The notes under the pieces are model-generated. The model saw nothing but the letters and a program-made list of their open reading frames with translations, was not told the origin of the DNA and did no database searches. A stretch of DNA of 64,000 nt from Beroe forskalii. Lineage: Eukaryota; Ctenophora; Nuda; Beroida; Beroidae. The DNA lies in the NCBI GenBank assembly GCA_011033025.1, contig WFMF01000225.1, positions 186,001-250,000 on the forward strand. Direction: 5' to 3'. The translations under genes were made by a program, and so were the position numbers. Positions 13,826 through 39,269 of this stretch are shown here, piece by piece. How positions within the stretch are numbered: the first letter of the stretch is position 1; each line of letters begins with the position of its first letter.

Positions 13826-13925
13826 NNNNNNNNNNNNNNNNNNNNNNNNNNNNNNNNNNNNNNNNNNNNNNNNNNNNNNNNNNNNNNNNNNNNNNNNNNN
13901 NNNNNNNNNNNNNNNNNNNNNNNNN
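13826..13925. other. Assembly gap (100 N)
   Basis: Exactly 100 N inside the exon-derived array, consistent with a scaffold gap of unknown real length. Confidence 0.99.
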
Positions 13926-14214: not shown

Positions 14215-15938
14215 GGGGAGATTCAGGTACTAAGTTGCAGACACAGGGCCGACGATCCTGCATTTTGGCCTTTTTGAGTTGAGACCACCCACCTGTATTT
14301 TGGTACCTGGGTACTAAGTGGTTTTGGCATAAAATTAAGACACCCACCCTAAATTTAAGTTTTTTGGAGCAGTTCCAGAATAGAAAATTTAATTCCAGAC
14401 TCTGGTAGTACAAAGGAATCTGAAAAGTGCTATTTGAGTATTTGATATTGAAATAGGCACAATTACAATAGTTTCAATCATCATACAACTGAACTCCTCA
14501 TTTATTTTGTGCCAGGCAAAGTTGAAATTCAATGCCCACTGCCCTGCAATAACCTTGTGGGAAAACATCTTCCCACAGTTATAAGCAATTTTTATGCTCT
14601 TCAGTATATTTTTGGATTTATTTTGTCCATTGAAGGCTTTCATAACCAATTGACCCAAGCTCTCCCCTCCATTTCATTCCCTTCATTCCTTTTTATAAAG
14701 CCCTAGCCCTACATTTGGGTGCGTCGATTATTGTTGTTTTTTGAGATAATCATGATGGTGGAATGTTTTTGTTGCTTCATCTGTAATCTGGTTCTAAAAT
14801 GACTCTGGTAGCAGTTTTTGAGAACAAAACTGAAGTTTCATGGTTGAACCAGTCATATGATATTTTAGCACGTCATGCTTTTCCAAGTGAAGTTGGAGGT
14901 GATTCTTTAATTCTTTATCTTTACCTACAATCTTTCGAAATAGAGGGTATTCCAGCTTGTTTTATAGCTCTGAAAACCCTAACAGTATCCGAAAACTTTG
15001 ATTGGGCCCAAGCCAAAAGCATAGAATCAAAATTCCGGATTTTGATCGCGTGACTTAGATCACATGATCATGAAAATTAATAAAATGCGTTTTTTAATGT
15101 TTACATATTATGAACTTTAGATACTGCAATCGTTTTGTCAAAATATATAAAAATTAATTTGCGATCTGATAGTGATGAAGTGAAATTTTCCATTTCGGCT
15201 AAGGGGACGAGAACTAAAATGCTTAATATGGTCACGTGACTAGCTAAGAATTGCCCTAAAATCGCCACTTTAATGATTCCACTCGAAACTTTTGGATCTT
15301 TATCAAGGTTTCATAACCATTTAACACTTAAGTGTGTTGGTAAAGTACCTACGTCCTTACAGGATTTATGGGTGACTACACCATGTTCGAAGTTTTGTGA
15401 CCATCTTTGTAGCTTGCACAGCTCATTACACATTGAAAATGTAAGTTTCAATTCATGTGAGCACTCGCCACGAAAGCACTAGGTATTCGTAAGAGTGAGA
15501 TATTACAGAATATTACAGAATATGTTCATTGTACAAACAAAATTGCTAAATGTTTACAGAATGTTTGGTGGCCAGGTAGCTCAGTCAGTCATTAATAAGC
15601 GGCAATCGAGAAGTTGCTGTTCCCGCTCAATCTAATTTTGTGCTAACGTGCGTGTTATTTGGCTCCAAAATGTATTGCATTATCTAATTAATGTGATCAG
15701 GCAGAAAATTAAATTTGAGATGAATTTCCCGCAGTTTACGGGGAAAACGTAAATATTTCACACTCTGATACTACGAAATCAGTAGATATCGACGTATTTT
15801 AGTACCAAGGTACCAACTGATTTTTCAAATTCCAGCTGATGACCACGTATTTTAGTACCCAGGTACTAAACGACATTCGAGGGAAAAATAGACCCACCCA
15901 CCGGCCCTGTGTCTGCAACTTAGTACCCGAATCTCCCC
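14215..15938. mobile_element. DNA transposon with 37-bp terminal inverted repeats, non-autonomous
   Basis: The left end 14215-14251 and right end 15902-15938 are inverted copies matching at 36 of 37 positions; they start GGGGAGATTC and end CACAGGGCCG. Further in, both ends carry subterminal GTACCTGGGTACTAAG-like motifs in opposite orientation (near 14311 and 15803-15870). The element splits one unit of the GPCR-1 exon array; flanking CTTCGC sequence suggests a target duplication of up to 8 bp, but the repeated target makes this uncertain. Internal open frames (14389-14658 minus, 14799-15053 plus, 15273-15482 plus) show no transposase signature I recognise. Superfamily not assigned. Confidence 0.85.
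15570..15640 (+). other. Possible tRNA-related (SINE-like) promoter fragment
   Basis: GGTAGCTCAGTCAGTC resembles a tRNA A box, and GTTCCCGCTCAATCT about 45 bases later weakly resembles a B box. No cloverleaf can be drawn convincingly and no 3' tail is evident. It lies inside the 37-bp-TIR transposon. Low confidence. Confidence 0.25.
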
Positions 15939-18900
15939 CGCCTTCGCGACCACCATGTCCCTCTTCTTTGACTTCTTGAGTACTTGACCCCCCCCCCGCC
16001 CTAGGATGAATGACACAGAGGAGTTGTCTCTGGGGCGCCCAGGCCCTTCATGACCACCATGTCCCTCTTCTTTGACTTCTTGAGTACTTGACCCCCCTAG
16101 GATGAATGACACAGAGGAGTTGTCTGGGGGCGCCCAGGCCGTCTTCGCGACCACCATGTCCCTCTTCTTTGACTTCTTGAGTACTTGACCCCCCCCTAGG
16201 ATGAATGACACAGAGGAGTTGTCTGGGGGCGCCCAGCCGCCTTCGCGACCATGTCCCTTCTTTGACTTCTTGAGTACTTGACCCCCCCCTAGGATGAATG
16301 ACACAGAGGAGTTGATGGGGACCACCTTCATGTCCCTCTTCTTTGACTTCTTGAGTACTTGACCCCCCTAGGATGAATGACACAGAGGAGTTGTCTGGGG
16401 CGCCCAGGCCGCCTTCGCGACCACCATGTCCCTCTTCTTTGACTTCTTGAGTACTTGACCCCCCCCCCTAGGATGAATGACACAGAGGAGTTGTCTGGGG
16501 CGCCCAGGCCACCTTCGAGACCACCATGTCCCTTCTTTGACTTCTTGAGTACTTGACCCCCCTAGGATGAATGACACAGAGGAGTTGTCTGGGGGCGCCC
16601 AGGCCGCCTTCATGACCACCATGTCCCTCTTCTTTGACTTCTTGAGTACTTGACCCCCCTAGGATGAATGACACGGAGGAGTTGTCTGGGGGCGCCTAGG
16701 CCGCCTTCGCGACCACCATGTCCCTCTTCTTTGACTTCTTGAGTACTTGACCCCCCCCCTAGGATGAATGACACAGAGGAGTTGTCTGGGGGCGCCCAGG
16801 CCGTCTTCGCGACCACCATGTCCCTCTTCTTTGACTTCTTGAGTACTTGACCCCCCCCCCCCTAGGATGAATGACATAGTGGAGTTGTCTGGGGGCGCCC
16901 AGGCCGCCTTCGCGACCACCATGTCCCTCTTCTTTGACTTCTTGAGTACTTGACCCCCCCCCGCCCTAGGATGAATGACACAGAGGAGTTGTCTGGGGGC
17001 GCCCAGGCCGCCTTCGCGACCACCATGTCCCTCTTCTTTGACTTCTTGAGTACTTGACCCCCCCTAGGATGAATGACACAGAGGAGTTGTCTGGGGCGCC
17101 CAGGCCGTCTTCGCGACCACCATGTCCCTCTTCTTTGACGAGTACTTGTGATGAATGACACAGAGGAGTTGACTGGGGCGCCCAGGCCGCCTTCGCGACC
17201 ACCATGTCCCTCTTCTTTGACTTCTTGAGTACTTGACCCCCCCTAGGATGAATGACACAGAGGAGTTGTCTGGGGCGCCCAGGCCGCCTTCGCGACCACC
17301 ATGTCCCTCTTCTTTGACTTCTTGAGTACTTGACCCCCCCTAGGATGAATGACACAGAGGAGTTGTCTGGGGGCGCCCAGGCCACCTTCGAGACCACCAT
17401 GTCCTCTTCTTTGACTTCTTGAGTACTTGACCCCCCCCTAGGATGAATGACACAGAGGAGTTGTCTGGGGCGCCCAGGCCGCCCCCACCATGTCCCTGCT
17501 TTGACTTCTTGAGTACTGACCCCCCCAGGATGAATGACACGGAGGAGTTGTCTGGGGCGCCTAGGCCGCCTTCATGACCACCATGTCCCTCTTCTTTGAC
17601 TTCTTGAGTACTTGACCCCCCCCCCTAGGATGAATGACACAGAGGAGTTGTCTGGGGGCGCCCAGGCCGTCTTCGCGACCACCATGTCCCTCTTCTTTGA
17701 CTTCTTGAGTACTTGACCCCCCCTAGGATGAATGACATAGAGGAGTTGTCTGGGGGCGCCCAGGCCGCCTTCGCGACCACCATGTCCCTCTTCTTTGACT
17801 TCTTGAGTACTTGACCCCCCCCTAGGATGAATGACACAGAGGAGTTGTCTGGGGGCGCCCAGGCCGCCTTCGCGACCACCATGTCCCTCTTCTTTGACTT
17901 CTTGAGTACTTGACCCCCCCCTAGGATGAATGACACAGAGGAGTTGTCTGGGGGCGCCCAGGCCGCCTTCATGACCACCATGTCCCTCTTCTTTGACTTC
18001 TTGAGTACTTGACCCCCCCCTAGGATGAATGACACAGAGGAGTTGTCTGGGGGCGCCCAGGCCGCCTTCGCGACCACCATGTCCCTCTTCTTTGACTTCT
18101 TGAGTACTTGACCCCCCCCCTAGGATGAATGACACAGAGGAGTTGTCTGGGGGCGCCCAGGCCGCCTTCGCGACCACCATGTCCTCTTCTTTGACTTCTT
18201 GAGTACTTGACCCCCCTAGGATGAATGACACAGAGGAGTTGTCTGGGGCGCCCAGGCCGCCTTCGCGACCACCATGTCCCTCTTCTTTGACTTCTTGAGT
18301 ACTTGACCCCCCTAGGATGAATGACACAGAGGAGTTTTCTTGGGCGCCCAGGCCGCCTTCTGTCCCTCTTCTTTGGGTACTTGACCCCCCCCCAGGATGA
18401 ATGACACAGAGGAGTTGTCTGGGGCCGCCTGCGACCACCATGTCCCTCTTCTTTGACTTCTTGAGTACTTGACCCCCCCCCTAGGATGAATGACACAGAG
18501 GAGTTGTCTGGGGGCGCCCAGGCCGCCTTCGCGACCACCATGTCCCTCTTCTTTGACTTCTTGAGTACTTGACCCCCCCCCTAGGATGAATGACACAGGA
18601 GTTATGACCACCATGTCCTCTTCTTTGACTTCTTGAGTACTTGACCCCCCCCCCCCCCTAGGATGAATGACACAGAGGAGTTGTCTGGGGGCGCCCAGGC
18701 CGCCTTCACGACCACCATGTCCCTCTTCTTTGACTTCTTGAGTACTTGACCCCCCCTAGGATGAATGACACAGAGGAGTTGTCTGGGGGGCCCAGGCCGC
18801 CTTCGCGACCACCATGTCCCTCTTCTTTGACTTCTTGAGTACTTGACCCCCCCCCTAGGATGAATGACACAGAGGAGTTGTCTGGGGGCGCCCAGGCCGC

Positions 18901-20293
18901 CTTCAGACCACCATGTCCCTCTTCTTTGACTTCTTGAGTACTTGACCCCCCCCCCCTAGGATGAATGACACAGAGGAGTTGTCTGGGGGCGCCCAGGCCG
19001 CCTTCGCGACCACCATGTCCCTCTTCTTTGACTTCTTGAGTACTTGACCCCCCCCCCTAGGATGAATGACACAGAGGAGTTGTCTGGGGGCGCCCAGGCC
19101 ACCTTCGCGACCACCATGTCCCTCTTCTTTGACTTCTTGAGTACTTGACCCCCCTAGGATGAATGACACAGAGGAGTTGTCTGGGGGCGCCCAGGCCGCC
19201 TTCGCGACCACCATGTCCCTCTTCTTTGACTTCTTGAGTACTTGACCCCCCCTAGGATGAATGACACAGAGGAGTTGTCTGGGGGCGCCCAGGCCGCCTT
19301 CGCGACCACCATGTCCCTCTTCTTTGACTTCTTGAGTACTTGACCCCCCCCTAGGATGAATGACACAGAGGAGTTGTCTGGGGGCCCAGGCCCTTCATGA
19401 CCACCATGTCCCTCTTCTTTGACTTCTTGAGTACTTGACCCCCCCCTAGGATGAATGACACAGTGTCCGCCGAGGCCGCCTTCTGTCCCTTTCTTTGACT
19501 TCTTGAGTACTTGACCCCCCTAGGATGAATGACACAGAGGAGTTGTCTGGGGGCGCCCAGGCCGCCTTCGCGACCACCATGTCCCTCTTCTTTGACTTCT
19601 TGAGTACTTGACCCCCCCTAGGATGAATGACACAGAGGAGTTGTCTGGGGGGCCCAGGCCGCCTTCGCGACCACCATGTCCCTCTTCTTTGACTTCTTGA
19701 GTACTTGACCCCCCCCCCCCTAGGATGAATGACACAGAGGAGTTGTCTGGAGGCGCCCAGACCGCCTTTGCAACCACCATGTCCCTCTTCTTTGACTTCT
19801 TGAGTACTTGACCCCCCCCCCTAGGATGAATGACACAGAGGAGTTGTCTGGGGGCGCCCAGGCCGCCTTCGCGACCACCATGTCCCTCTTCTTTGACTTC
19901 TTGAGTACTTGACCCCCCCTAGGATGAATGACACAGAGGAGTTGTCTGGGGGCGCCCAGGCCGCCTTCGCGACCACCATGTCCCTCTTCTTTGACTTCTT
20001 GAGTACTTGACCCCCCCCCCCCCTAGGATGAATGACACAGAGGAGTTGTCTGGGGCGCCTTCAGGACCACCATGTCCTCTTGACTTCTTGAGTACTTGAC
20101 CCCCCTAGGATGAATGACACATTGGCGCCCAGGCCGCCTTCGCGACCACCATGTCCCTCTTCTTTGACTTCTTGAGTACTTGACCCCCCCTAGGATGAAT
20201 GACACAGAGGAGTTGTCTGGGGGCGCCCAGGCCGCCTTCGCGACCACCATGTCCCTCTTCTTTGACTTCTTGAGTACTTGACCCCCTCCCTAG

Positions 20294-22794
20294 GATGAAT
20301 GACACAGAGGAGTTGTCTGGGGGCGCCCAGGCCGCCTTCGCGACCACCATGTCCCTCTTCTTCCTGGTGGACATCCTGGGAAACTTCCTGGTTATCCTGG
20401 CCATCAGCACCAACGAGAAGCTCCAGATAACAAGCAACTTCTACCTCTTCGCGCTGGCAGTGGCAGACATCACCATAGGTAAATCACCATAGGTAAATCG
20501 TTAGCATTAGAATAGGTAAATGAAGCATGACACCCAACCTATGAAACTTGCCAACTATACTTCGCGTATTAGTAATCCGCCGGGCTATGCATCTTTTCTA
20601 GCGCGCGGCAGTACTAAGTGACGTCATATGCCCGGCGGATTACTAATACGCGAAGTATAACACTCATCACTCCCAGGAGTGAACACGATGTTGCCAGCTA
20701 CTATCACTGTGAGTGCTAACAGCGCCGTCCTTTCCCCGTGGATGTGCACTCTCACTAGCTTCATCGACACCGCCACTCTGCCCCTCTCCCTGTGGATACT
20801 GTCCGCGTCCTCACTAGACAGATGCGTCATGATCTACAAACCTCTCAAATACCAGTGAGTTTACCACAATTACTATTCACCAGTGTCATGGTCTACAAAC
20901 CTCTTAAATACCAGTGAGTTTACCACAATTACTGTTCACCAGTGAGTTGAAATTGTTAAGTTAAGCAACAACTTAACTTCGGGTCCAAAGTCCTTTTTGT
21001 TCTTTATTCCAGGACAAAAGGGACCTGGGAAATCAAACACTGCACAGATACTCACATCACGCTAGATACCAAACACTCCCGATCTGACCTGCCCAACCAA
21101 GTTTGTACAGGAAGTGGATCACTACGCAGAAGACGTTCACCTCCATCGCTCTGATCCTGGGAGGCTGTTCCTTGCTGTGCTGCCCCATCCTCAGCCCCCT
21201 CATCCCCAGCGATTGGAGTCCTCTCAGCTACACCTGCGCTCCGGACTTCTTCGGCAGCCTCAACTACTTCGCCGCCTACTGCTTCTTCACCTTCCCCGTC
21301 CCTATTATCATCGTCATGGTCTCCTACGTCATCATATTTACTGTGAGTTATAGGTCTCCTACGTCATCATATTTACTGTGAGTTATAGGTCTCCTACGTC
21401 ATCATATTTACTGTGAGTTATAGGCTACTCTACTCGTCCTTTTGGGTGCAGCCTAAAAAACAAAAGTAAAGCTCATTCTGTTGCCGTGTTTGGAGTATTG
21501 AAATGAAATTTTAGAATGTCACAGAGATTGGTCATAGATTTTTGCACCAAAATTTCAAATTTCTGTTTCAAAAGGAAAGTTGGAAATGGGCTGTGCATCC
21601 ATAAATTCTTGGCTAGCTAGTATCATTAGAAATAAATAAATTTGAATCCTGCACTGTGAGTATTAAATGTGAATCTTTCAATCCTTGCCCTATAAACTTA
21701 ATAAAACGTATGGAAGTTTAAACGTTTATTAACTTATTAACTGATACGAGAACACAGATTATCGTTGTCAGTTTGCCCATTTAGCTAAATAGTTGCCCTG
21801 TATGAGAGTTGGGTGCGGTAAATGGAAGTGAAAGTCCTGATCTGACAATAAACTCGGGCTCTGATAACCACTAGGTGACGCACTTCTAGTGCTGTTGACG
21901 TAGCATCTGACAGTTGGTGTAATATTGTTCACTGTCAGCATTCTACCTCATGATATTTCAACTATAGGCACAGGTTAGGTCTGGGTTAGTGCGTGGGTTT
22001 GGGTTAGGTTGGTTAGGGTTATAGTTATTTTCAGCGTTGGGGACAGAATGATGATTGCCGTGTGGTAAAATTTCGGTTCAAAGTCGGGCTGCCATCAGGG
22101 CGTGCTAAGAATTGAAAAAGTGAAGTGTTGTGACCTGTTTCAGGTGGTCACCTCGCTCCGTTGCAAAGTTAGTCGGCAGAAGATCCGGGCGACTATGACA
22201 GTGCTGGCAGTGATAGTGTGTCTGCTGGTGTGTGTGCTGCCCGTGTGGGGCAGGGCCCTCTACATCCTCTTCTACTTCCGTCAGCACGACCACCTGCCCC
22301 CCATATACCCCCTGCTAGAGATCTCCCTGCACTGGCTCCTCTTCAGTCACTCGGCTATCAACCCCTGCATCTACGGACTCGTCAACCCACAGTTCCAAGA
22401 TGCTTTCAAGCACATCGTCTTCTTCTTCCGGCGGGAGAAGAAAAGGCGCACTTTGGGGGATATAGACACGCGCCACAGAGGCTCCCAGAAGCGCTTCTCT
22501 AGCGTATACAGCATCGAGAACTCCGTGGTGAGAGACAAGCAGCCCTCACCCAACATTAACAACAATGTCAAGAACGAGAGTCTGTTCCAGGACATTTCCT
22601 GCTCCATTCTGAGGAACAATAACACTTTCCTGGGCCTCAAGTTCTCTAAAATAGAGGGCAAGGACGGTGCAGACGCGGGAGGGAAGTCTCAAAGCGGACT
22701 TGTACAAAATGTTAACAATATGGTTCACATCTCAGAAAATATGGATAGTGAGCAATACTGCGACTCAGTTGTCCAAACGACAACTCAGGTCTAG
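20294..22794 (+). CDS. GPCR-1: rhodopsin-like (class A) 7TM receptor, four coding exons, complete
   Basis: Exons 20294-20478 (ATG at 20295), 20677-20854, 21111-21342 and 22144-22794 join in phases 1, 2 and 0 into 414 residues with no stop. TM1 carries N30 of the GN motif; TM2 reads ALAVADITIG with D58. C85 and R110 are exactly 25 apart, as expected for positions 3.25 and 3.50; the DRY motif is D-R-C. The ECL2 cysteine is C163. TM5 has P185 and Y193 at the conserved spacing. TM6 reads CVLPVWG and TM7 NPCIY (271-275). A long polar C-tail ends TTTQV, a class I PDZ-binding pattern. Such receptors signal through G proteins at the plasma membrane. TM1, TM2 and TM7 look like aminergic or melatonin-type receptors, but I would not name a ligand. 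The exon begins at a splice acceptor (CCCTAG), so a 5' non-coding exon probably lies upstream of the array. Each of the three introns starts with a duplicated donor region. Confidence 0.93.
20469..20496 (+). repeat. Donor-spanning 14-bp tandem duplication, GPCR-1 intron 1
   Basis: ATCACCATAGGTAA occurs twice in direct succession. The first copy holds the exon 1/intron 1 junction (ATAG then GTAAAT); the second repeats the last exon bases and the donor. Using the second donor would add 14 nt and shift the frame. Confidence 0.9.
20556..20659. mobile_element. 104-bp MITE with perfect 30-bp inverted repeats in GPCR-1 intron 1
   Basis: Arms 20556-20585 and 20630-20659 are perfect inverted complements (TATACTTCGCG...CCGGGC). 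TATA at both ends could be the target duplication. The 44-bp loop holds TGACGTCAT, a CRE-type palindrome. No coding capacity. Confidence 0.88.
20826..20943 (+). repeat. Donor-spanning 59-bp tandem duplication, GPCR-1 intron 2
   Basis: Units 20826-20884 and 20885-20943 differ at three bases. Unit 1 holds the last codons of exon 2 (VMIYKPLKYQ) and the CA-GTGAGT donor; unit 2 repeats both inside the intron. Splicing at the second donor would insert 59 nt and break the frame. Confidence 0.93.
21319..21423 (+). repeat. Donor-spanning 35-bp tandem triplication, GPCR-1 intron 3
   Basis: Three perfect 35-bp units begin at 21319, 21354 and 21389. The first holds the last codons of exon 3 (SYVIIFT) and the ACT-GTGAGT donor; the other two repeat exon tail plus donor. 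Confidence 0.95.
21424..22143 (+). other. GPCR-1 intron 3
   Basis: The rest of the intron after the donor triplication has no exon-like signal. A short GGTTAG-rich patch at 21966-22024 is degenerate and is not a telomeric array. The acceptor is CTGTTTCAG at 22135-22143. Confidence 0.7.
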
Positions 22795-23674
22795 TGCTCC
22801 GTGGCAAGGAGCAAGTTATGTTGAGACCTTTTAATTCAGGAGAAGGGGAAGTGGTTCCATTTCCCGCCCTGTTCGCTACATCCATCTCTCTGGGATGGCT
22901 CCCCCTTCTTTTTATCCTTCCAAAGCATTAATTTAATATGTTCCTGCATATAAATATGAGTAGGTTTATGTTTTTATATGAGACATAAGAATTTGGGAAT
23001 GATACCTTTTAACATTATGGCCTTTATTTAGCCACCTTTTTTAAGTTTAACGAATCATTTTTGAACATATTTCTTTCTTTCTTTACCGGACAAATGCTTT
23101 TCGGCATATGAGCACCTTACAATCGGCGCCGATCAGCGCCGATTGCAAGCCTATTTTCTAGTGGTTGCCTGTTCAAGGATTTTTCTGCTCTCAAATAACC
23201 ACTTAAATCCATTTACACCCAATAAATTGCATCAGAAGATCCAAAGAATTAGGCCATTATCTGTGTTGTTATCTAATGATGGTCATGTGATTTAGTGAAC
23301 TGGACAGTGCATAAGCAGAAGCTAAGGAATAGAAATTTTATTTGACAAGAAGTCGCATTTGTCTTTCAATTTCAAGGCCTGTTAAATAAGGGTCAATAAG
23401 TTATACAATTGAAAAGGTATCTTTCTCAAAGTCAAATGTATAAATTATGACTTAAGATGGATGGCTTACTGTGCCACGCTGCAGCACATTGGCGCACTGT
23501 ACCATGAAATTAAATGCTTATTTATCGTGTTAATGATTGATTTGTTCTTTTCCATATAACCTGAAAATGTGATATAAATTTCATGAAATGATATCTTTCA
23601 TTCTTTCCTAGTCTTAAGAAACCACGATGGGAATTCACGTGCAATATCGATCAGTATCATAGTACTCAGTACTG
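22795..23674 (+). other. GPCR-1 3' flank, probable 3' UTR
   Basis: Sequence after the TAG stop has no further coding frame. An AATAAA at 23221-23226 is a candidate polyadenylation signal. A small inverted repeat AATCGGCGC/GCGCCGATT lies near 23121-23146. Confidence 0.55.
23221..23226 (+). promoter_or_regulatory. Candidate polyadenylation signal of GPCR-1
   Basis: Canonical AATAAA about 430 bases after the stop codon. Only the hexamer and its position support it. Confidence 0.35.
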
Positions 23675-25326
23675 CATTATGCACCTTCCAAGCATGTTTA
23701 TGCTATGTATTCAAAAACCCTATAGGCACCAGGGTACCGTGCGCAATAAATTATTACGCACTGTAGTGCCGAAATCCGGATTTATTACGCACTGTAGGTC
23801 ATAATAATTTATTATGGTGCAGTAGAACAGTGCGTAATAATTTATTTCGCACAGCTGAGCAAACTGTACCTTCATATTTTAATTTAAAACATTTCCTTGT
23901 GTTTGAAAATATTGCCATTTTCCGAGTAAATTCGGTGCATAATTCAGTTTAATAACTCGTAAAAAAGTACTAAACTCAGCATTAAAAACCTCGGCCTTCG
24001 GCCTCGGTTTCTTAATGCCATATTACACACTCGGGCCTCCGGCCCTCGAGTGTGTAATATGACGTTTAGTACTTTTTACTCGTTACTAAACCCTTCATTA
24101 TATCACTGCATTTCAGCAATAGATGTTTTCGATAATGATATGAGAGTAAAACTTAATTAAAATACTTTATTCAGCGTGATATTTATCTTTGCTTCATCAC
24201 ATTTCACAATGGATGCAAAACTTTGGTTGTTGAAGACTAGATTTAGATTGTTTAACTTGACCTAAAAATTAGTTGTGAATAACTATATGTACTTTAGAGG
24301 CGTAAGACGAACACGCAGACAATATAGAGCCCTGCGAGAGCAGGGCTCTATATAATATTTAAATGTCGACAGCGCAGCTGGAGACATTTAAATAATTTAG
24401 AGTGCGAGGCGAAGCGTAGCTGAGCCGAGTGCTCTAAATCATATTTCTGCGGTGAGTTTGAGCCTCTAAAGTACTATAGTAGTCGAACGGTGTATACAAG
24501 ACACACCCTGTACACAACAAGCGCACATTACCTTATATGGTAATAAGCAAAATGCTTGTTTACACATAACAAAAAGCGCATAACTCAGCCGTTTTTGAGC
24601 AATTTTGATCAAATTTTCAGGATATTACGGGCAACATATGACCAATATAATCCTAGAATAGCTAACATTTTGACCTTCAGAAATTGAGATATCTTAAATA
24701 AACCGGTTTTATGTTAAAAGTTATCGCTTAACAACTGGCTTTTCGGTCATAACTCCCACTTCTGGGGCTCAAAATGAATCTAAACTTCACTGAGATGTTG
24801 CTCATATCTAGCTCTAAATATCCTGAAAGTTTCATCAAGTTTGCTCAAAAAACCTCGGAGATATGCACATTTTTGTAACACAAAAGCAAAGGTCGCGTAG
24901 ATGTGTATTTTTTTATAGTAACGAGTAAGAATTGCTAACCGGGATATAACACACGAGGGCCGAAGGCCCGAGTGTGTTATATCGCATTAAGAACCGAGGC
25001 CGAAGGCCAAGGTTTTTATTGCAGAGGTTTGCAATTTTTGCGAGTTATTAAACTGAATTATGCACCGTAATTACTCGTAAAAAAATGGATAATTTCAAAC
25101 ACAAGGAAATGTTTTAATCTATGATATGAAGCTACAACTGGGTCGACTGTGCGAAATAAATCATTACGCACTGTTCCACTGCACCATAATAAATTATTAT
25201 GACCTACAGTGCGTAATAAATCCTGATTTTGGCACTCCAGTGCGTAATAATTTATTGCGCACGGTGCCCTGGTGCCTATAGGGTTTTTGAATACATAGCA
25301 AAAACATGCCTGGAAGGTGCATAATG
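23675..25326. mobile_element. Fold-back element with ~400-bp inverted arms
   Basis: The left arm (23675 to about 24085) and right arm (about 24915 to 25326) are imperfect inverted copies over their whole length. The outer ends read CATTATGCACCTTCC and GGAAGGTGCATAATG. Both arms carry repeated GTGCGTAATAAT/TTATTACGCAC motifs and two GC-rich hairpins (GGCCTTCGGCC; GGGCCTCCGGCCC). The loop (24086-24914) holds three more perfect hairpins at 24330-24470, among them AGAGCCCTGC/GCAGGGCTCT and ATTTAAATGTC/GACATTTAAAT. No open frame of interest and no clear target duplication. Known fold-back transposons share this form; family not assigned. Confidence 0.88.
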
Positions 25327-25638
25327 GTATTTAATTACAGTGTCATAACAAACACATGATATAAAACGCGTGTAGAACACGACTCTACGCATATAGTACT
25401 ACCCTTTAAATCGGTCAAAACTTGTCGTGAGACTACTATAAGTATTTAATATGTTCAATTTAATATATTTTAATTTAAATACTTGAAATTTTCATGATGA
25501 TCCTTTTCAACAACCATTTCAATATTCGAGTCTCCCTTTGGGGTTCCCCGGGATAAGCCATCGTTCCTTTTTTAATTACCTTTTTTTTTAAAACCCCGGT
25601 TTTTTTTTCACAAAAATTTTCCTTGGGGCAAGGGGTTT

Positions 25639-25738
25639 NNNNNNNNNNNNNNNNNNNNNNNNNNNNNNNNNNNNNNNNNNNNNNNNNNNNNNNNNNNNNN
25701 NNNNNNNNNNNNNNNNNNNNNNNNNNNNNNNNNNNNNN
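25639..25738. other. Assembly gap (100 N)
   Basis: 100 N placed within exon 4 of GPCR-2. The ~100 bases to its left (25540-25638) are rich in homopolymer runs and look like low-quality consensus. Confidence 0.99.
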
Positions 25739-27844
25739 ATAACAAGGAAATTATCTCGGTAGTTCCCATGGCGTATGTGATAGAGTCGTAGCAGAGAAGC
25801 ATCAGGATAGGAATCCAGGTGAGGGCTACCATGATCTTAGCAGTCGTAGTGTTTATTATGGTCTTGTAGTGGAGGGAGAAGACAACGGCAACGAATCTGT
25901 CAAATGTCAGAGGGACGAGGACAGGGATAGCCGCCATCCTGGGAGAGAGGGAAGTGTGACAGCAGCTCACAATGACAACAGCTCACTTTGACAACAGATC
26001 ACTCTGACAACAGATCACTCTGACAACAGTTTACTCTGATAACAGTTCACTCTGACAACAGATCACTCTGACAACAGATCACTCTAACAAAATTTCACTT
26101 TGTCAACATTTCACTCTGACAACAGCACACTCTGACAACAGATCACTCTGACAACAGATCACTCTGACAACAGATCATTCTGACAACAGCTCAGTAGCTC
26201 ACTCTGACAACACACCGTCACACCATGACAACACCCCATGACAACACACCATGACAACACTGATCACCCACCAAATAGAGTAAGCTGTGATTGTGTACAT
26301 GTAGCACCACCAAGTCAGCACCCCGTTATCATCAATACCAACGTAGTTAGCATTGACAACACTCATCATGACAACACACCATGACAACTTGACAACACAC
26401 AGTGACAACACTGATCACCCACCAGATAAGATAGAGTTAGCTGCGATAGTGTACATGTAGCACCACCAAGTCAACACCCCGTTGTCATCAATACCAACGT
26501 AGTTAGCATTGACAACACTCGCCATGACAACTTGACAACACACCATGACAACACACAGTGACAACACTGATCACCCACCAGAATATAGAGTTAGCTGCGA
26601 TAGTGTACATGTAGCACCACCAAGTCAGCACACCGTTGTCATCAATACCAACGTAGTTAGCATTGACAACACTCACTATGACAACACACCATGACAACAC
26701 ACAGTGACAACACTGATCACCCACCAGATAGAGTTAGCTGCGATGGTGTACATGTAGCACCACCAAGTCAGCACTCCGTTGTCATCAATACCAACGTAGT
26801 TAGCATTGACAACACTCACTATGACAACACACCATGACAACACACAGTGACAACACTGATCACCCACCAGATAGAGTTAGCTGCGATAGTGCATGTAGCA
26901 CCACCAAGTCAGAACAACCGTTGTCATCAATACCAACGTAGTTAGCATTGACAACACTCACTATGACAACACACCATGACAACACACAGTGACAACACTG
27001 ATCACGCACCAGATAGAGTTAGCTGCGATAGTGTACATGTAGCACCACCAAGTCAGCACCCCGTTGTCATCAATACCAACGTAGTTAGCGTTGAGAATGC
27101 CCAGGCCTCGGAAAATACCAACAATCGCAATCAGGATGTCGCTAACAGCCACGTTCAGGATGAAGAAATTCTGAAAATGTAATCAGTTACACAGGTGTGA
27201 TCAGTTACAGTGATTAAATCTGCATAGATTCTCAGATTTAATCAATAACAATGATTTCAAAGTGAGAAGGTATTTTGTTTTTATGAATTCGACGCACTAT
27301 ATTGAATTTCGATAATACAATGTGATTTGTTTGCTATAAAATCGAAATATGAAAAGCCGCGCAATCGTACCCAACGTACACCAAAAGCATACCAAACCTG
27401 CCTCAATTTCAGCACGGTAAAGTTTAAGGTTTTACCTGGCAGTAGGGCAGCTTGACGTGGAAGATAAGGCAGTAGATAGTGAAGGTACTCATGATGGTTC
27501 CAATAACTCCGATACCGAACAAACACGTGCCCTGAAACACAAGGAAATGTCATTTGTAAGAGAACAGAAACATAAGGAAATGTTATTTGTAAGAGGGCAA
27601 AAACACAAGGAAATGTTTTGCGAGAGGGCAGAGTTGATTTATCAATCGTGAAATGAAGGAATCGGTCAGACTCAATCGAAGACCTCGCGAGCGACATCTT
27701 AAACGTTATGATAAAGGTATAATTACGTTATAATAACGTTTTACGTTATAACAACGTGTAACTACTCACATTTGCCACGAGAAAGGCGCAAGTCTCAGTG
27801 ATATTGGTGTCAAGACAGACACTGTCGTCAATGTTATACCCCAT
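25739..27844 (-). CDS. GPCR-2: rhodopsin-like 7TM receptor, 5' four exons, truncated by a gap
   Basis: Minus-strand exons are 27844-27770 (N-terminus MGYNIDDSV..., sequon NIT), 27531-27436 (TM1), 27170-27010 (TM2 NFFILNVAVSDILIAI, ECL1, start of TM3) and 25938-25739 (rest of TM3, TM4). Phases are 0, 0 and 2; the split tryptophan TG/G is restored at the exon 3-4 join. Across that join, the cysteine in TWWCYMY and the arginine of FDRF are exactly 25 residues apart, as in class A TM3, which confirms the join. TM4 keeps its tryptophan (VALTWIPILML). The frame then enters the N gap in ECL2; TM5-TM7 are not seen. Ligand unknown. Between exons 3 and 4 lie tandem copies of the exon 3 tail. Either the gene continues in the gap or it is a fragment. 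Confidence 0.8.
25965..26210. repeat. Short tandem repeat in GPCR-2 intron 3 (CTCTGACAACAG units)
   Basis: About 15-17-bp repeats of CACTCTGACAACAGATC and variants. The same repeat occupies 39270-39840 at the left end of the second segmental copy. Confidence 0.9.
26210..27009 (-). repeat. Array of GPCR-2 exon 3 tail plus donor (five extra copies, ~145 bp)
   Basis: Five intronic copies (near 26277, 26426, 26586, 26727, 26873) repeat the last 27 codons of exon 3 (ANYVGIDDNGVLTWWCYMYT plus IAANSIW) with the following GTGGGTGATC donor and about 60 bp of TGTTGTCA-rich intron. The coding part is nearly unmutated; one copy (26873) has a small deletion. The TM2 half of the exon is not in the unit. 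Confidence 0.95.
27535..27631 (-). repeat. Acceptor-adjacent 33-bp triplication before GPCR-2 exon 2
   Basis: Three units (27535, 27568, 27601) each carry AAACACAAGGAAATG or a close variant; on the minus strand this is the pyrimidine-rich TTTCCTTGTGTTTCAG acceptor region. Copy B at 40465 has one unit only, so the expansion followed the segmental duplication or was lost in B. Confidence 0.88.
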
Positions 27845-29196
27845 ACGTCTCAAAACAAATGTGATACGATTAGATAAATATTTAGTAAATAAACTTGGCA
27901 ATACTAAAACGGTTTTAGAACTATCAGTTTTCCAAAATTGATCCACGTCAACATTAAGAATGCCCAAAATTCGATGCCCAATCAATAACAGTTGACAATA
28001 ACAGAGCAACAAAATCAACAAAGCCTCCTATTCCGTCCACAAAGAAAAGAATTCTTCAATTTTAATCTGGATCTAAAAGTGGTATCCTATTACAATTCAA
28101 ATTTCGGCTGCACTTACAAAACCACTAAAAGTTCCTCTTCTACTCATGTTAAGATTTACGCAGAAATATCGAGCTTGCATTGGCTGAGAATGATCGTGAA
28201 TGTGATGAGAACTATCAGTATGTATTACATCATGTACCATGAGGTGATCAGAACAACTTACTAAAATAGGTATTCACGTAATCATAGAACCCTCTGATGT
28301 TCTTCTTGGTGTCTATAATACATAGAAACTTGCCCGATGGGGTCAATATATTATTGGCACTGAACCTCGCCCTACGGGCTACGGGTCAAAACCGGACACA
28401 TCCCTCGGGCTGTGCCCTCGGAAATATCCCGAAATATTGAAATAATAGGGCAATAGGCACGTTAGGGAGGTTCAGAAAACAATTTTTCGTCAAATAATTA
28501 GGAGTATTTGTTTAAAAGTTGACATAGGGGGTCATTAACTCCCAGGCACGTGTTTATGTAAAATATTATTGATGCTCTGATTAATATCGGACATACGACC
28601 TGTAAATGACTACTGACGCTGATTGCAGTTCTAAACTGACATATCGGAACTGCAATGAGCTATATCGAACACCAGAAACAAGGAACGTCCCCCGAATGAT
28701 AAGTAAATGGAACGAGTTAAGAAGATCGGTGTTTATAAGTCCGCTACACTTCCCAGGAAATCACGGGTTTGATCGGGTGGGTGCAGTCACGTGATGAATA
28801 GGTCCCATGATAGGAATGACCGGATATGTCACGTGATTGGATATGTTACGTGACATTCTTATCCGTTACTCTTCATTCAACTTGAAATGAACTAGAAGGA
28901 ATCTATTCTTTAGGAATTTACTTAGGAATGGAATGTATTCTGGTCTACATAAGTCTACCTCAATATATAAATGATAACATCAACATCAAATCTGCCTACT
29001 CAATGAATCAATTTAAGGGAAGGAACGCCTTTCACAAGAGTCCTAACTCTATCTACTCAGTGCACAGAATAATGAAGGAATATTTCGGATCTGTGGTACG
29101 TGACAGCATTGCACATGTTTCACATGGTTACAACTATGTTCTCATTGTTACAACCATGTTTTCATGGTTACTATGTTCTTATCTCATCTGTAAATA
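27845..29196. other. Intergenic region between GPCR-2 and GPCR-3
   Basis: AT-rich DNA also present in copy B (40845-41960). An open frame at 28928-29227 is conserved as DNA but disrupted in copy B, so it is probably non-coding. GC-rich palindromic bits lie at 28365-28425. Confidence 0.5.
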
Positions 29197-29341
29197 CACC
29201 ACCAAAACCGTTGGACGGTTGGTCTAGTAACCCCCCGCTGGTTTGGATGTGATTAGCCCATTTTGTCTCTTTTCAGGTTCCGTTGTCACATCCAAACCCG
29301 CGGGGGGTTACTAGACCAACCGTCCAACGGTTTTGGTGGTG
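29197..29341. repeat. Inverted repeat with ~56-bp arms
   Basis: CACCACCAAAACCGTTGG at the left is mirrored by CCAACGGTTTTGGTGGTG at the right; the arms run inward to GGTTTGGATGTGA and TCACATCCAAACC. Confidence 0.93.
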
Positions 29342-29876
29342 ATATCTTGACAGATGTATGTAGTTTGAACCCATGTAACTTGCCCAAACGCAGTTTGAAC
29401 CCACGTTACTTGCCCTCACGTAGTCCAAACCCACGTAACTTGCCCACACGCAAGTCTAACCCACATAAATCACCCTGAGGAAGTCCAAAACTAAGTTATT
29501 CTAACTTGGAATTACTAGAATTGATATATGTCTTAATTTCTACAAAACTTCCGTGTGTACTCATGTGCTGAAATATAGCAACCAGATCTAATTTCACGTG
29601 CATTAGTCCTATTTGAACTCATTTCAACGTAACCATGTCGAAAATCCCGTGTAAATCTCAATTTCTTCAAATCCCCTAATTTCTACAAAACGTCCGTGTG
29701 TACTCACGTGCTAAAATATGGCAACCAGATCTAATTTCATGTGCATTAGTCGTATTTAAACTCATTTCAACATAATCAAGTCGAAAATCCTGCGTAAACA
29801 TCAATTTCTTCAAATCCCCTAATTTCTACAAAACGTCCGCGTGAACTCACGTGCTTCACTAGTCCATCGTATATTT

Positions 29877-30093
29877 CCCCGTTATTCGGACCCCCGTTAT
29901 TCGGACCCACGTTATTCGGACCCCCGTTACTCGGACCCCCGAAATTCGGACCCCCGTTATTCGGACCCCCGTTATTCGGACCCCCGTTACTCGGACCCCC
30001 GTTATTCGGACCCCCGTAATTCGGACCCCCGATATTCGGACCACCGTTATTCGGACCCCCGTTATTCGGACCCCCGTTATTCAGACCCACATA
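29877..30093. repeat. 15-bp minisatellite, about 14 copies
   Basis: Units of CCCCCGTTATTCGGA with point variants (GTTACTCGG, GAAATTCGG). The minus-strand frame repeats NNGGP because 15 is a multiple of three; no gene is inferred. Confidence 0.96.
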
Positions 30094-32374
30094 ATCCGAT
30101 GAAAACTCTATGAGTTGGAGATGTAAAAGTAGCGCAAAATAGCGTTCTATCACAAAATACGCTATTTTAGTGGTTTTACGCGATTTTGATGACGTCATCA
30201 CAGCACCCAAATAAGCTCAAACCAACTTTCCATATAGCCTATAAGACAATTTCGCCTTAGTACAACATACTTTGACCGGTCTCATCTCAAGATAAGCTGC
30301 AGTTCTTGACATATCACTCGTTTAAGTTTTTCTCCTAAAATTTTGAAATCGATTTTTCACCGTACCTTAGAAAATCGCGTATATCTCGATGAAAAATCGA
30401 GATAGCCCAATAATCCGTATGATTTTCTGAAAGCTCTTTAAATTTGCTAAAAATTGTTCCGAAAAATCAGACCGCTATCTCCTTTCCTTCTTGGTGAAAA
30501 ATGCGCTCAAATATAGCCTATTTTCGCTAAAAAAGAAATAAAATTTCGCTAAGTTGATGACGTCATAATGACGTGAAAATGACGTCACCAGAACTTCTCT
30601 TATAGCCTATAACATTTTCCCATCTTAGATCAACAAAACCTGACCTCGATCATGGCTCTACCATTTCCCGTTCTTGAGATCTCATCGTTTTAAATTTGCT
30701 CCCAATTATCATGATATTATATATTATTAATCTTATATCTTATTATTCTTATGCTATCACCCTGTGACACTCGTTCGTCTAATATATACCCTGGCCAGTC
30801 TTTTTTATTACCGCGGGGGGTTACCGCCCTGGCCAGGGCGGGAATAACCATGATATGAAATAACTTTTGTAGCCGAACGTTTATTATAAAAAGTAAAACA
30901 CTGACACTGAAACCTGTGAGTTGAGTACTAGACCAGTATATTAACTCATTAAGTAGCGATCTTGTAAAACAGTATCATAGTTCAATAGAATCAAACAGAC
31001 ATGCAGTACTCAGTAAAAAGTCACATGAAGGATCCAGTCAGCCGTGAGAATTCTTTAAATTCTTGGTAGGAATTTATCCGAAAATCGGAATGATAATAAC
31101 ATAATAATATCGGTTTGGAGGATTTCAAGCGGCAGATATATGTGATTTAACATTATCGTTATTCAAAACTCGAAATGTGATGTTTGTTGGAGAGAAAGAT
31201 AAAATAATGAATGAAATAAAATTGGTGTATATTTTAATTTTTCCGATTCCTAGAGGTGGGGGAATTGATAATATTATTTCAAATCGAAGTTTATAATTTG
31301 TGATCAAGATACGCAATAAAAACCTCACTTGTCTAAAACGAATAAAATCAGATAACCAAAATCAAAGCTTTAAAACATATCTGTAAACTAAATCAGCAAT
31401 AATTTAATATATTCAATATGATGAAATAAATTAAAAACATAAAATATACTAGCTCTACACAAATCAAACAATAAATCAAGCAAGCGCAACAAATATAATT
31501 GAATAATGATTTGAATGGAGAAATCAAATAATTTACTTAAAAATAAGTAATTCGATTAATAATGTACCCATACTTTGGATTTAGATGATTCAGAAAATTT
31601 AAGCAATTGAATTATTAAAAACACTTCCAATTCTAATCAGAAGTTGAATTTGACTCCCATTAATATACAGCAATGTCGGATTAAGAAACTGCCAAAATTG
31701 AAATACTGTAATATGTCAATTATATTATAACGTTTTTAAATCGCTGTGTTAGATAACAAATACTGAAAAATTGAAAATCAGTTTTAAAATTATATGAAGC
31801 ACCTGTTTGCCTGGGTGATTTCATACTGGCTATGCGTGAAACAGACCTAAAATATCAGATAAATCATAAATTGATTAAGATATCAGAAATTTTACAAACG
31901 AGATAAAAATATTTGATCATTTTCTAAATAATCTCAAAGTGATGAAGTATAATTTTAATAACGTGTCCTGCATCAAATTTACCATATGGCAAATAATTCT
32001 TAGCTCTTGTTCTCGTATCATCAATATCTAGCCAGAAATTTGGCAAAGTTCTGAAAACAATACGTTGTAGTATTATATAAAATTAAATTGTTAAACTTAA
32101 AATCTGGACTTTCAACTTCAAGTGTAAGTATAGGAAAAAAAACTAAAATCTACAGCAATCTGACAACATGCGAAGTCAGAAAATACGTGAACATGGTATG
32201 TTGATCATATTGAAACGTTGCTTTGTAAAATAGTGTCATTATTTTCGTAATGCAATTTTTGACATCTTACTTTGTCGTTCTCTTTATTCTCAAATTTGCT
32301 AAGAATTTAACGTTCCTAAAATACGCATGCCTCAAACATATTACGTTGACAGCTCGAACTGCAGCTTGTGCATC

Positions 32375-32450
32375 TTTTGTGTGCGCGGCTTAAGTTTGCG
32401 CGGCGTACAGACATATGTCTATACGCCGCGAAAAAGCCGCGCGCACAAAA
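32375..32450. repeat. GC-rich inverted repeat
   Basis: Arms TTTTGTGTGCGCGGCTTAAG and AAGCCGCGCGCACAAAA surround inner arms GCGGCGTA/TACGCCGC and the palindrome AGACATATGTCT. Copy B (43318-43360) keeps only the right half. Confidence 0.85.
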
Positions 32451-32480
32451 GACAAGCATACTGTTCTAAACGCCGCGCAC

Positions 32481-32557
32481 GAGAAATAGGCGGTACAACG
32501 TCATCAACTCACTACCTTGAGCTATGATAATGACGTCATCCTACCCGCCTATTTCTC
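32481..32557. mobile_element. AGGCGG-family MITE, copy 1
   Basis: Ends GAGAAATAGGCGG and CCGCCTATTTCTC are perfect 13-bp inverted repeats. The interior has ATGACGTCAT. Other members are at 37700, 39250 (half), 49156, 50624 and 58167. Confidence 0.85.
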
Positions 32558-33004
32558 ACAAATTATTACATAATCAGGGCTTCAAAAGATAACGCTACAA
32601 AAATCAAACAAATGTGATGTAAACTTGATAACAGGCCGGGGGTTAAAAGTCGCTATTATTGATAACGTGAACGACCCCTTTTATGACGTTTAAAAAGTGT
32701 ACATTGTACGTATGTACATTGTACATCAGTTAATCAAAGCTACATTCTTCAATTATCCTATTTTGTTATAACATCAATCAAACATCAATTTATGAAATCA
32801 TCAAAATATGCTTGGATCACCACCAAGCTTCAATCATTATTCAGCTGACGACATGAATCGCTTGATTTTCGAAAGCTTCTGACATTAAAATCATAAAATG
32901 TCTTGTATCAATTCAACGTTCCTCAACTTTCCTAATCCTACTTCAAGAGTATAAGTTCTTGTTCAGTCCATCATTGAGATAGTACTATGTCGCTCAAGTC
33001 CTAG

Positions 33005-33150
33005 GTCATCTGAATCCTGTTCAGAGTTCGCTTATCAAGTGTACGGAACCTGTTCAGAGTTCACTTATCTTCAAGTGTACGGAACCTGTTCAGAGTTCAC
33101 TTATCTTCAAGTGTACGGAACCTGTTCAGAGTTCGCTTATCTTCAAGTTC
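33005..33150 (-). repeat. Stop-codon-spanning 36-39-bp array at the GPCR-3 last exon
   Basis: Units with CTTATCTTCAAGTGTACGG and CCTGTTCAGAGTTC repeat the last codons (LKISEL) and the TGA of GPCR-3, about four copies, immediately downstream of the real stop at 33126. Copy B has two. Confidence 0.9.
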
Positions 33151-36100
33151 ACAGCCAGGTAGAGCTTATTCTGGTGTATCTGGTACACATCGTTCCGTGG
33201 CAGGATCTTACGGATTTCTTCTGAGTCAACCGGCGTCCCAGTGGTCTTCTTATCTGGATGTGAAACCTGGGTTAGACGAAGTTTATTAATGCATTTTATG
33301 CCTATATGTTTCATGATTTTTTGTTGTTTTTGTTTTGTTTTTTTAATGATATTTCATTGATTTAGGTTTCAATGCATTTATGTAGGCTTCAAGCATTTAA
33401 CGGTATTTCAAGCATTCCTTGATCTATAATTTATTCAATGTGAAAAAATATCGGTGAGAATGGTACTCGCTTTCATATGCAGTACTATAAAAGCTCAAGA
33501 ACTATAGACCTGCACTCCGAATAAAATAGACAATGGGCATGGCTCTCGATATAATTCAGAGCAGCAGAAAGCATAGAGGCGAATTAAACTTTGAAGGCTA
33601 TCGGATTCATGAAAAGAAGCAATTAAGCACTGACGTCAATAATTTCGTCAATTCCCATGTTTTAGCACGACGTGATATAGTACGTTATAGCACGTGATAT
33701 AGTTCGTCAATAATTTAGTCACGTTCCGTAGCACAAATGCATGGAATGGAAGGGAACAAAGGGTGATTTGCAGGCCCTATATTAGGCATTCTCATATACT
33801 ACAAGCATTATTGGTATTTCAGTAATCTGAGGTGAACAAAAAGCCCCCACCCCTGATTGAAAAAAGTGCTTGATAAAGGAGGACAATCAAGGCCTTGCAA
33901 GAATATCTTGGAATACTGCTGGGTTGGAATACTGCTGTTCTAGAAGCATTAATATTATTCGGGATATTGCTACGTTGATGCATTCAACTACAGAGGTATG
34001 TGGTAGAAGGAAAATATTTCACTGGAGTAAAAGGAATGTATATTTCAAGGTATCTCACCTTTAGACATTGAGAGCGTAGACCTCAAGTAATCCCTCAGTG
34101 ACGCTCCCCTCGTAAACAAGATGACAGGTTTTATGAAGGAGTTCAGGAACACCGATATATTCCCGGTAAAGTACAGCACGTAAAACTCCGCCTTGAGTAG
34201 CTTAGTCCCAAACCCGTGGATATTAAACACGATTTCTGTAACGAAGTAAACCGAACAGAGGAAGAAACTAGCTGTGGTTAGCTGCAGTACCGTTCCCGTG
34301 ATCTTCCTGTTCTGCCCCCGTGTAACTGTGGTAGTCCGGGTTCTCAGCAGGGATACTGAGATAAGAGCAGCACACACTACAGCGATCAGAGCCGGGATAA
34401 CAAAGGGTAGTCCGAGGAGTATCATGAAGTAGATCCACCCCGAGATATCATGTGATATCAGCTCACTGCCCGTCAGGGGGTTGAGCACTAGAAACACCAC
34501 GCTGTACATCAGATCCCCGGATGTTTTGGTGTGCATTACCACGCTCCGTATCTCGTATATTGACAGCACCACCCAGATTAGCGGGTATATCAGCATTACG
34601 CACTTTATGCTGAACACGTGTACTGGGTAGGTCGGCGCGACAACGTTTATTGTGCGCGTCACGCAGAGGACCAGGCTGTAGATTGTCTCGGTACGGGAGG
34701 CGACCGCGAAGATGAAACTCTCGAAGGGAACGAGGATTTCTAGGTAGTCTGTGGAGCAGTCGATGGAAGCGATGAGGATGGCGCAGTGTAGGATCGCACA
34801 TCTGGGGATAGGAGAGGGTTAGTTGTCATGGTGATGGAGGGTTAGTTGTCATGAAACTGGTCTTCAAAATGGTGTCAAAGAGAACTGATGTCAAATTTAT
34901 GTCAGAGAGAAGAGACGCAAAAAGTGGTGTCAAAGAGAACTGATGTTAAATTCATGTCAGAAAAGAGATGCAAAAGTGGTGTCAAAGAGAACTGATGTTA
35001 AATTTATGTCAAAGAAAAGAGATGCAAAAGTGGTGTCAAAGAGAACTGATGTTTAATTTATCAAACAGAAGAGATGCAAAAGTGGTGTCAAAGAGAACTG
35101 ATGTCAAAGTGATGTCAAAGAGAATTGATGTCAAAGTGATGTCAAATGAAACTGGTTTTCAAAGTGGTGTCAAAGAGAACTGATGTAAAGTTTATGTCAA
35201 AGAGAAGATACGTAAAAAGTGGTGTCAAAGAGAACTGATGTAAAGTTTATGTCAAAGAGAAGCGATACAAAAAGTGGTGTCAAAGGAACTAGTGTCAAAG
35301 AGAAGTGGTGTCAAAAACACCTGGTGTCAAAGTACTCATATTCCTATTGAGCAATCCAGTACTGAGTTGTATCTGTAGATGATGTGCTGGATATTGTTGT
35401 TCTTGCCTCGGTAAAACAGGTAGATCATAATGTTCATCGCCACACTGAAAAATAATTAGTTTTAAAATCAATTTATAAAAAAACAACACGTTCAATAAAG
35501 CTCTGTTTTCAATCAATAAGTATCATTAATTTGTCTCAGTAAATCCAATATGTAGTAAACATCACAATTGATGTATGGGGGGGGGGGGAGGTAAGTCAAA
35601 CTTGGGCAAGAAATAGAATTATTTGCCAAAATTTGCCTTATTCCCCTGATGTAAGACATAAAAATGTAGCAAGACACATCAAAATCTAATAAATATAACC
35701 CATTGATTAAACATAAGTCATTGATTATTTGATTAAACATAATTACAATATCAAACCTGCACATTCCTAGACAGGCAGTAAGACACATGATGGTCTCAGT
35801 AAATCCGATATGTAGCAAACATCACAATTGATGTAAGGGGGGGGGGGGGGGGGGCAAGGCATTAAGGCAAACGCTTCTTTGACAAGTTTGCCAAAATGGG
35901 AATTACTTGCCAAAATTTGCCTTATTCCCCCCCCTACCCCCCTGATGTAAGACATGTTGCAAGAACTGTATCAAGAACTGTATCAAAATCTAATAAATAT
36001 TACCCATAATAAGACATTAATAATTAATTATTAAACATTATTAAAATCATACCTGCACATTCCTAGACAGGCAGTAAGACACATGATGGTCGTGTTGAAG

Positions 36101-36177
36101 TTCTTATCTGACAGGAAGGTTAGGAGAGTGACGGGGGAGGTGGAGTTGAAGGCGAAGGGGGTGTTCGTACTGACCAT
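33126..36177 (-). CDS. GPCR-3: divergent 7TM receptor, four exons
   Basis: Minus-strand exons: 36177-36053 (start MVSTNTPFAFNSTSP, sequons NST and NTT, start of TM1), 35444 to about 35345 (end of TM1, ICL1), 34801-34059 (TM2-TM7, helix 8) and 33253-33126 (tail DKKTTGTPVDSEE..., stop). Joins 1-2 (phase 2) and 3-4 (phase 1) fit. Exon 2 to 3 lacks a GT donor in the needed phase: the frame reaches TGA before GTACTT, so this join is unresolved and the allele may be defective. TM3 ends CVTRTINVV in place of DRY, position 3.25 is valine, ECL2 has no cysteine, and TM7 reads FIKPVILF in place of NPxxY. It is seven-helical by hydrophobicity but outside classical class A rules; it could be a lineage-specific chemoreceptor or peptide receptor. 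Confidence 0.72.
34805..35335. repeat. Tandem repeats filling GPCR-3 intron 2
   Basis: Repeats of GTGGTGTCAAAGAGAACTG alternate with ATTTATGTCAAAGAGAAG and GATGCAAAA, about 54 bp per full unit. The array starts at the exon 2 edge (AGTACTTTGACACC on the minus strand) and reaches the exon 3 acceptor, where GAGGGTTAGTTGTCATG is duplicated. Confidence 0.9.
35515..36060 (-). repeat. Two ~285-bp copies of GPCR-3 exon 1 tail plus intron
   Basis: ACATTCCTAGACAGGCAGTA with AGACACATGATGGT occurs at 36057 (real exon 1 end) and again at 35760 within intron 1, including a donor-like CAG-GTTTG. The linked ACATCACAATTGATGTA and poly-G tract is also duplicated (35559, 35820). Confidence 0.9.
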
Positions 36178-37030
36178 ACTGTCCTATTAAGAGGGTGAGA
36201 GGGTTAGTATTTATGTGAGGGGGTGTTTGTACTGACCATACTGTCCTATTAGAGGGGGGAGGGTTAGTATTTATAGGTTAGGGGGTGTTCGTACTGACCA
36301 TACTGTCCTATTAGAGGTGGGAGGGTTAGTATTTATAGGTTAATTATTAAGTTATTAGATGAAGGGGGTGTTCGTACTGACCATACTGTCCTATTAGAGG
36401 GGGGAGGGTTAGTATTTATAGGTTATTCATTAAGTTATTAGAAAGAAGATAAAAGGGGGTGTTAGTACTGACCATACTGTCCTATTTAAGGTGGGAGGGT
36501 TAGTATTTATATGTTGGGGGGTGTTTGTACTTTGTACTGACCATACTGTCCTATTTAAGGTGGGAGGGTTAGTTATAAGGTTACTTATTAGAACTAAGAT
36601 GAAGGGGGTGTTCGTACTGACCATACTGTCCTATTTAAGGTGGGAGGGTTAGTTATTAGGTTAGGGGGTGTTTGTACTGATCATACTGTCCTTTTAAATA
36701 GTGAGAGGGTTAGTTATTAGGTTTTTTATTAAGTTATTAGAAAGAAGATAATAGGGGGTGTTTGTACTGACCATACTGTCCTATTAGAGGTGGGAGGGTT
36801 AGTATTTATAGGTTATTCATTAAGTTATTAGAAAGAAGATAAAAGGGGGTGTTAGTACTGACCATACTGTCCTATTTAAGGTGGGAGGGTTAGTATTTAT
36901 ATGTTGGGGGGTGTTTGTACTTTGTACTGACCATACTGTCCTATTTAAGGTGGGAGGGTTAGTATTTAAATAGGTTAGGGGGTGTTCGTACTGACCATAC
37001 TGTCCTTTTAAATAGTGAGTGGGTTAGTTA
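36178..37030 (-). repeat. Array of the GPCR-3 start codon region, about 11 extra copies
   Basis: Units of 60-90 bp repeat GGTGTTCGTACTGACCATAC and TGTCCTATT, which on the minus strand encode the GPCR-3 start MVSTNTP preceded by AATAGGACAGT. Copies lie near 36234, 36298, 36379, 36470, 36540, 36620, 36680, 36769, 36860, 36930 and 36988, all upstream of the genuine start at 36177. Each unit therefore carries a start codon and an AATAG acceptor-like sequence. Confidence 0.95.
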
Positions 37031-39268: not shown

Positions 39269-39269
39269 A

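Follow-up and report, generated by a model that had tools for sequence, protein, structure and literature searches.

Short tandem arrays that straddle exon edges occur in the ctenophore Beroe forskalii in several unrelated genes and not in receptors alone, and in a small sample of such genes the arrays of high identity lie across edges more often than random placement predicts. The phenomenon is known in amphioxus under the name of "mirages"; the structural features match and the lineage differs. On balance, and by a modest preference, we read the arrays as mirages, short tandem duplications that arise preferentially at exon-intron junctions, survive there and may grow into minisatellites. The window, i.e. 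the whole stretch of 64,000 nucleotides that was analyzed, lies on contig C276 of a genome of 216 Mb and holds 116 TRF rows. Tandem copies had been predicted there at nine or more exon edges of three receptor genes, and at seven of the nine named edges a repeat unit indeed spans the edge.

Exon edges of the three receptor genes

The clearest case is GPCR-1, on the forward strand. Its four coding exons (20295..20478, 20677..20854, 21111..21342 and, with the stop, 22144..22795) join into a single open 7TM frame, that of an intact class A receptor whose first 309 residues match the Pfam profile PF00001 (E=4e-29). Upstream, interrupted 98-bp tandem arrays found by TRF extend over 12883..20362, with a run of 100 N at 13826-13925, and the last unit crosses the 5' edge of the first coding exon, as had been proposed for this acceptor, its exon part being 20294-20362. 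The three donors are also crossed, in agreement with the prediction, as TRF and a re-reading of the edges indicate: donor 1 (edge 20478/20479) by a 14-bp unit present 2.2 times (20469..20499), donor 2 (20854/20855) by a 59-bp unit present twice (20826..20944) and donor 3 (21342/21343) by a 35-bp unit present 3.1 times (21318..21424). The exon parts of these units measure 10, 29 and 25 bp, respectively. When the genome was searched with the GPCR-1 stretch and 40 of 198 candidates were scored, no other place was listed for the 59- and 35-bp units. Intron 1 also carries a near-palindromic, MITE-like element of 104 bp (20556-20659) that was found at 38 or more other places of the genome, again with 40 of 198 candidates scored.

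GPCR-2 lies on the reverse strand. We re-read the edges of the exon with TM1 (27436..27531) and of the exon with TM2 and the start of TM3 (27010..27170); the joined piece matches PF00001 with E=6.5e-8. The donor of the second of these, the exon ending at 27010, is crossed as predicted by an array of about six copies of a 143-bp unit (26221..27094, from TRF and the comparison of copies described below), with 85 bp of exon inside the first unit. The acceptor of the TM1 exon, for which the same had been claimed, does not follow the pattern. Here three copies of a 33-bp unit (27535..27630, TRF and alignment with the neighbouring copy) abut the exon: the array ends at 27535, ahead of the CAG, and the exon starts at 27531. 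Upstream of the next acceptor TRF detected a purely intronic 16-bp minisatellite of the TGACAACA type (25957..26193). Related TGACAACA-type minisatellites are found in introns of unrelated genes (39268-39809 in the window and C664:54369-54605), and TGACAAC is present in the unit of 3 of the 81 tandem arrays of the gene sample described in the next section.

This gene is part of a segmental duplication of about 12 kb, with one copy at 25.7-38.5 kb (25700-38500) and the other at 39-50 kb (39000-50000). The identity is 82 to 94% in the longer blocks and 70% over a forced end-to-end alignment, and many short deletions mark the second copy, which is decayed. Where the first copy has six 143-bp and three 33-bp units, the neighbouring one has a single unit of each. 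Copy number thus differs between neighbouring copies that are paralogues, not haplotypes, and one of which is decayed. Because of this decay we did not take the neighbouring copy to represent a clean ancestral state, and used its single units alone. Elsewhere in the window there are long satellite arrays with units of 54 and 28 bp (9-4283 and 5402-11421), and Rfam gave no match within the window at gathering thresholds.

The third gene, a putative GPCR-3 on the reverse strand, is less certain, as its hand-joined protein had no Pfam match. A mixed-period array (36156..36992; TRF, edge re-read) covers the 5' edge of the putative start exon and includes the ATG (36177) and 22 coding bp, and the donor of the same exon (edge 36053/36052) is crossed by a diverged duplication whose two copies lie about 296 bp from each other (35742..36091, by alignment and re-reading), with a matching stretch of 54 columns at 94%. 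Both agree with what had been proposed. The stop codon is the second edge of the original prediction that fails: the array with 16/27/54-bp periods (34864..35332; TRF, re-read) begins just 3' of the TGA (35338-35336), which is outside it. The stop itself is doubtful because the preceding exon has no clear donor. Two further receptor loci show comparable arrangements. In a gene adjoining a GPCR the donor is repeated about four times (L018:3228-3319), and at L036:1112-1357, on the reverse strand, a 37-bp array seems to begin within a coding tail that follows the GPCR domain, and to include the stop codon of that tail.

Placement of arrays in an independent gene sample

As an independent sample we analyzed genes for myosins, kinesins and SNF transporters, 31 stretches covering 111.6 kb, with splice sites inferred from profile hits (280 edges, 49.2 kb noncoding). 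The splice consensus that emerged, CAG|GTAAGT at donors and a pyrimidine tract with CAG|G at acceptors, supports the edge calls, with the caveat that the search started from a generic model of the same kind. TRF found 81 arrays in the sample, compared with 1 to 7 in each of five dinucleotide-shuffled versions of it, so the arrays are far beyond chance. Eighteen of them were excluded because they lay over 80 bp beyond the spans of the profile hits, and of the 63 that remained a further 26 were removed as their units were shorter than 14 bp.

Seven arrays of the sample straddle an edge. In myosin genes these are a donor at C29 (37 bp, three copies), a donor at C785 (22 bp, 2.2 copies, borderline with only 4 bp of exon) and an acceptor at C225 (34 bp, eight copies). 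A kinesin gene has one at a donor (C664, 43 bp, two copies), and the remaining three share one gene, the SNF transporter of C281, with 38 bp present 2.2 times at a donor, 39 bp twice at an acceptor and 16 bp twice at another donor. An assembly artefact would have some appeal given the gap of 100 N in the 98-bp array and a neighbouring copy that looks decayed or poorly sequenced. We regard it as the least probable explanation of all, since assemblers are blind to exon edges and these are small, often perfect duplications, present on several contigs at splice edges of genes that are unrelated to one another.

For units of at least 14 bp and identities of at least 90%, 7 of 13 arrays straddle an edge against 1.37 expected by random placement (P about 1e-4), and at 95% or more all five do, the cut-offs of identity and unit having been chosen after the data were seen and the sample being small. 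Twelve of these 13 arrays were read by eye, while C173:211982 comes from the solver alone. With the three arrays of C281 collapsed to one the count is 5 of 11 (P 0.003), and with C785 besides counted as intronic it is 4 of 11 (P 0.009 to 0.02). Over all identities, 7 of 37 straddle against 4.34 expected, which is not significant (P about 0.12-0.13). When units from 9 bp are admitted the values become 7/31 against 1.75 at identities of at least 90%, 5/16 against 0.85 at 95% or more, and 7/61 against 4.84 (P 0.20) over all identities; of the 16 arrays of at least 95% identity, the 11 with units of 9 to 13 bp were all counted as not straddling. The proposal that independent events cluster on edges is therefore borne out in fresh genes for arrays of high identity, but not when arrays of all identities are pooled.

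The way the edges were called weighs on these numbers. Automated pairing of profile hits started from 132 consecutive pairs, of which 116 were kept and 95 solved, plus eight introns inside hits, and its first count gave one straddling array in 34 against 4.63 expected. Edges with arrays escaped it, either because the profile extended across the copies or because an adjoining exon was lacking. An improved edge caller found four of the seven straddlers alone; the other three came from hand reading, which began with the arrays near hit ends.

The main competitor is tolerance alone, by which duplications arise everywhere and at a high rate, exonic ones are removed, those in introns or over edges persist, and readers notice those at edges as the copied exon is recognisable. 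We consider it a serious possibility, though a clearly less probable one than a preference for junctions. It draws strength from the lack of a significant excess over all identities, from the single straddler of the automated count, and from how common tandem arrays are, as the TRF rows of the window illustrate. However, introns should be at least as tolerant, and most young arrays whose units measure at least 14 bp are found at edges (7/13, and 5/5 at 95% identity or more). Tolerance alone also predicts more purely intronic young arrays than are observed. In 134 kb of loci of the MITE and of GPCRs there are 13 arrays with identities of at least 95% and units of at least 14 bp, one of them counted twice in overlapping loci. 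Setting aside, on our reading (in which L022 was judged by its unit), two that are coding or likely coding and two on an edge or stop, about eight are left. At that density 3 to 4 purely intronic ones would be expected in the 49 kb of sampled noncoding sequence, and none was seen. Of the two causes originally offered, tolerance by itself is the disfavoured one, as introns would be expected to bear such copies at least equally; the other, R-loop or breakage repair at junctions, is a candidate.

The placement of arrays that do not cross an edge weighs against the preference for junctions. Among the purely intronic ones, 14 of 36 lie within 30 bp of an acceptor against 5.9 expected, and without the pyrimidine-rich arrays 9 of 28 against 4.6 (P 0.016); near donors, within the same distance, there is no excess (7/36 against 5.9). 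Older arrays may abut edges, with 20 of 35 within 30 bp against 10.7, but the excess is restricted to acceptors and weaker without pyrimidine-rich arrays.

Origin and fate of the copies

We suggest the following course of events. A segment across an exon-intron (or start) edge, in most cases 14 to 150 bp long, would be duplicated in head-to-tail order, the joint showing little or no homology. The exon-side copy would retain its native neighbours, so that the true splice site, the frame and the exon stay whole, and the remaining copies would become intron and be spliced out. Through slippage or unequal exchange some arrays may afterwards grow into minisatellites, such as those with units of 98 and 143 bp, and later decay. 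At the joints the overlaps, as estimated from array lengths, are 0 to 7 bp, rough values taken from TRF ends, and suggest end joining or slippage over homologous recombination.

The prediction had stressed that the original exon is left intact. This is true, but it follows from geometry for every duplication across an edge and is no separate finding. Because the exon-proximal site keeps its native context, such duplications can be harmless whatever their cause. That context accounts for their survival and not for their enrichment over introns, and for this reason we lean towards a mutational bias at junctions, rather than selection, as the source of the edge excess. Candidates for the bias are breaks linked to transcription or splicing, or the step in base composition between exon and intron (48% and 37% GC, respectively).

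Splicing probably uses the exon-proximal copy. In GPCR-1 the exon-proximal donors are needed for the intact frame, and splicing from the distal copy of any one of these donors would cut the protein of 414 residues short, with a stop at residue 66, 122 or 228. These stops argue against the extra copies being functional as decoy or alternative splice sites, and so do the differences in the units read from gene to gene and the fact that only 1 of 14 straddling units (the 39-bp one) is a multiple of three in length, the GPCR-3 start array being excluded for its mixed periods. A good GT or AG is often preserved in the copies, and the copy of the 39-bp acceptor unit of C281 would add 13 residues in frame; even so, we find a function of this kind very improbable.

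Slightly less probable still is that the repeats are birth marks of the introns themselves, gained by tandem duplication or from introner elements. Part of PMC3087553 presents a model in which mirage repeats make new introns. In the introns with both ends placed, though (GPCR-1 introns 1 to 3, C664 and C225), the opposite splice site is outside the duplicated unit. The available text on intron gain by tandem duplication (potato RdRp, PMC4974935; the Rogers model as cited in PMC3087553) describes, as here, tandem duplication involving AG/GT sites. Here, in contrast, the copied segment contains a single edge of an intron that already exists, and no new intron was observed. Introner elements, as far as the consulted part of PMC9860276 portrays them, are likewise sequences linked to splice sites, but no family sequence is shared among the units that we read. 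Ordinary intronic minisatellites also expand and decay, whereas the unit here contains exon sequence and a splice site.

Relation to amphioxus mirages

There is prior evidence of this pattern, which is therefore not new in kind. The mirages of amphioxus are described, in the portions of PMC3087553 and PMC3902484 that we consulted, as minisatellite-like tandem repeats across exon-intron edges in the genes for Adh3, globin, troponin C and PGBD5, located at 5' and 3' edges, with a unit length that varies by gene and regular splicing reported as unaffected. Judged against those portions, the likeness is close. In Beroe the tandem unit also spans the exon-intron boundary, at donors (GPCR-1, C29, C664, C281) and at acceptors (C225, C281), and the units of 14 to 143 bp fall within the quoted 10 to 160 bp, with one exception of about 296 bp. 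The differences, with the same proviso, are that the host is a ctenophore, a non-bilaterian, that several unrelated gene families and also a putative start codon are involved, and that a placement test reveals an excess among young arrays. At the level of titles and the openings of abstracts, with subscription papers mostly outside the scope, we found no report of mirages outside amphioxus.

The mitochondrial contig bears on the identity of the genome. The only COX1 match found is on a contig of 13.3 kb (L069, C1134), which has 20% GC over 2.8 kb and whose cox1 is very derived. At conserved places TGA stands for tryptophan and AGA for arginine, and CGN codons are absent from the approximately 500 codons read. 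Bilaterian invertebrate mitochondrial codes read AGA otherwise than as arginine, so the genome is not that of an amphioxus. The derived protein, together with code 4, would fit a ctenophore, code 4 being given as the ctenophore mitochondrial code in the part of PMC6991124 consulted.

A wider reading, that in animals as distant as amphioxus and a non-bilaterian short tandem duplications have a mutational hotspot at exon-intron junctions, and that these are a nursery of many intronic minisatellites, is one that we put forward tentatively and hold somewhat short of an even chance. If junctions do attract small duplications, they would be a general source of intron growth, of spare splice sites and perhaps of new introns, and a mutation bias would be tied to gene structure. 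The occurrence beyond amphioxus makes the cause testable by comparison of species. It also carries a warning, that annotation may misplace exon edges where copies of a splice site follow one another.
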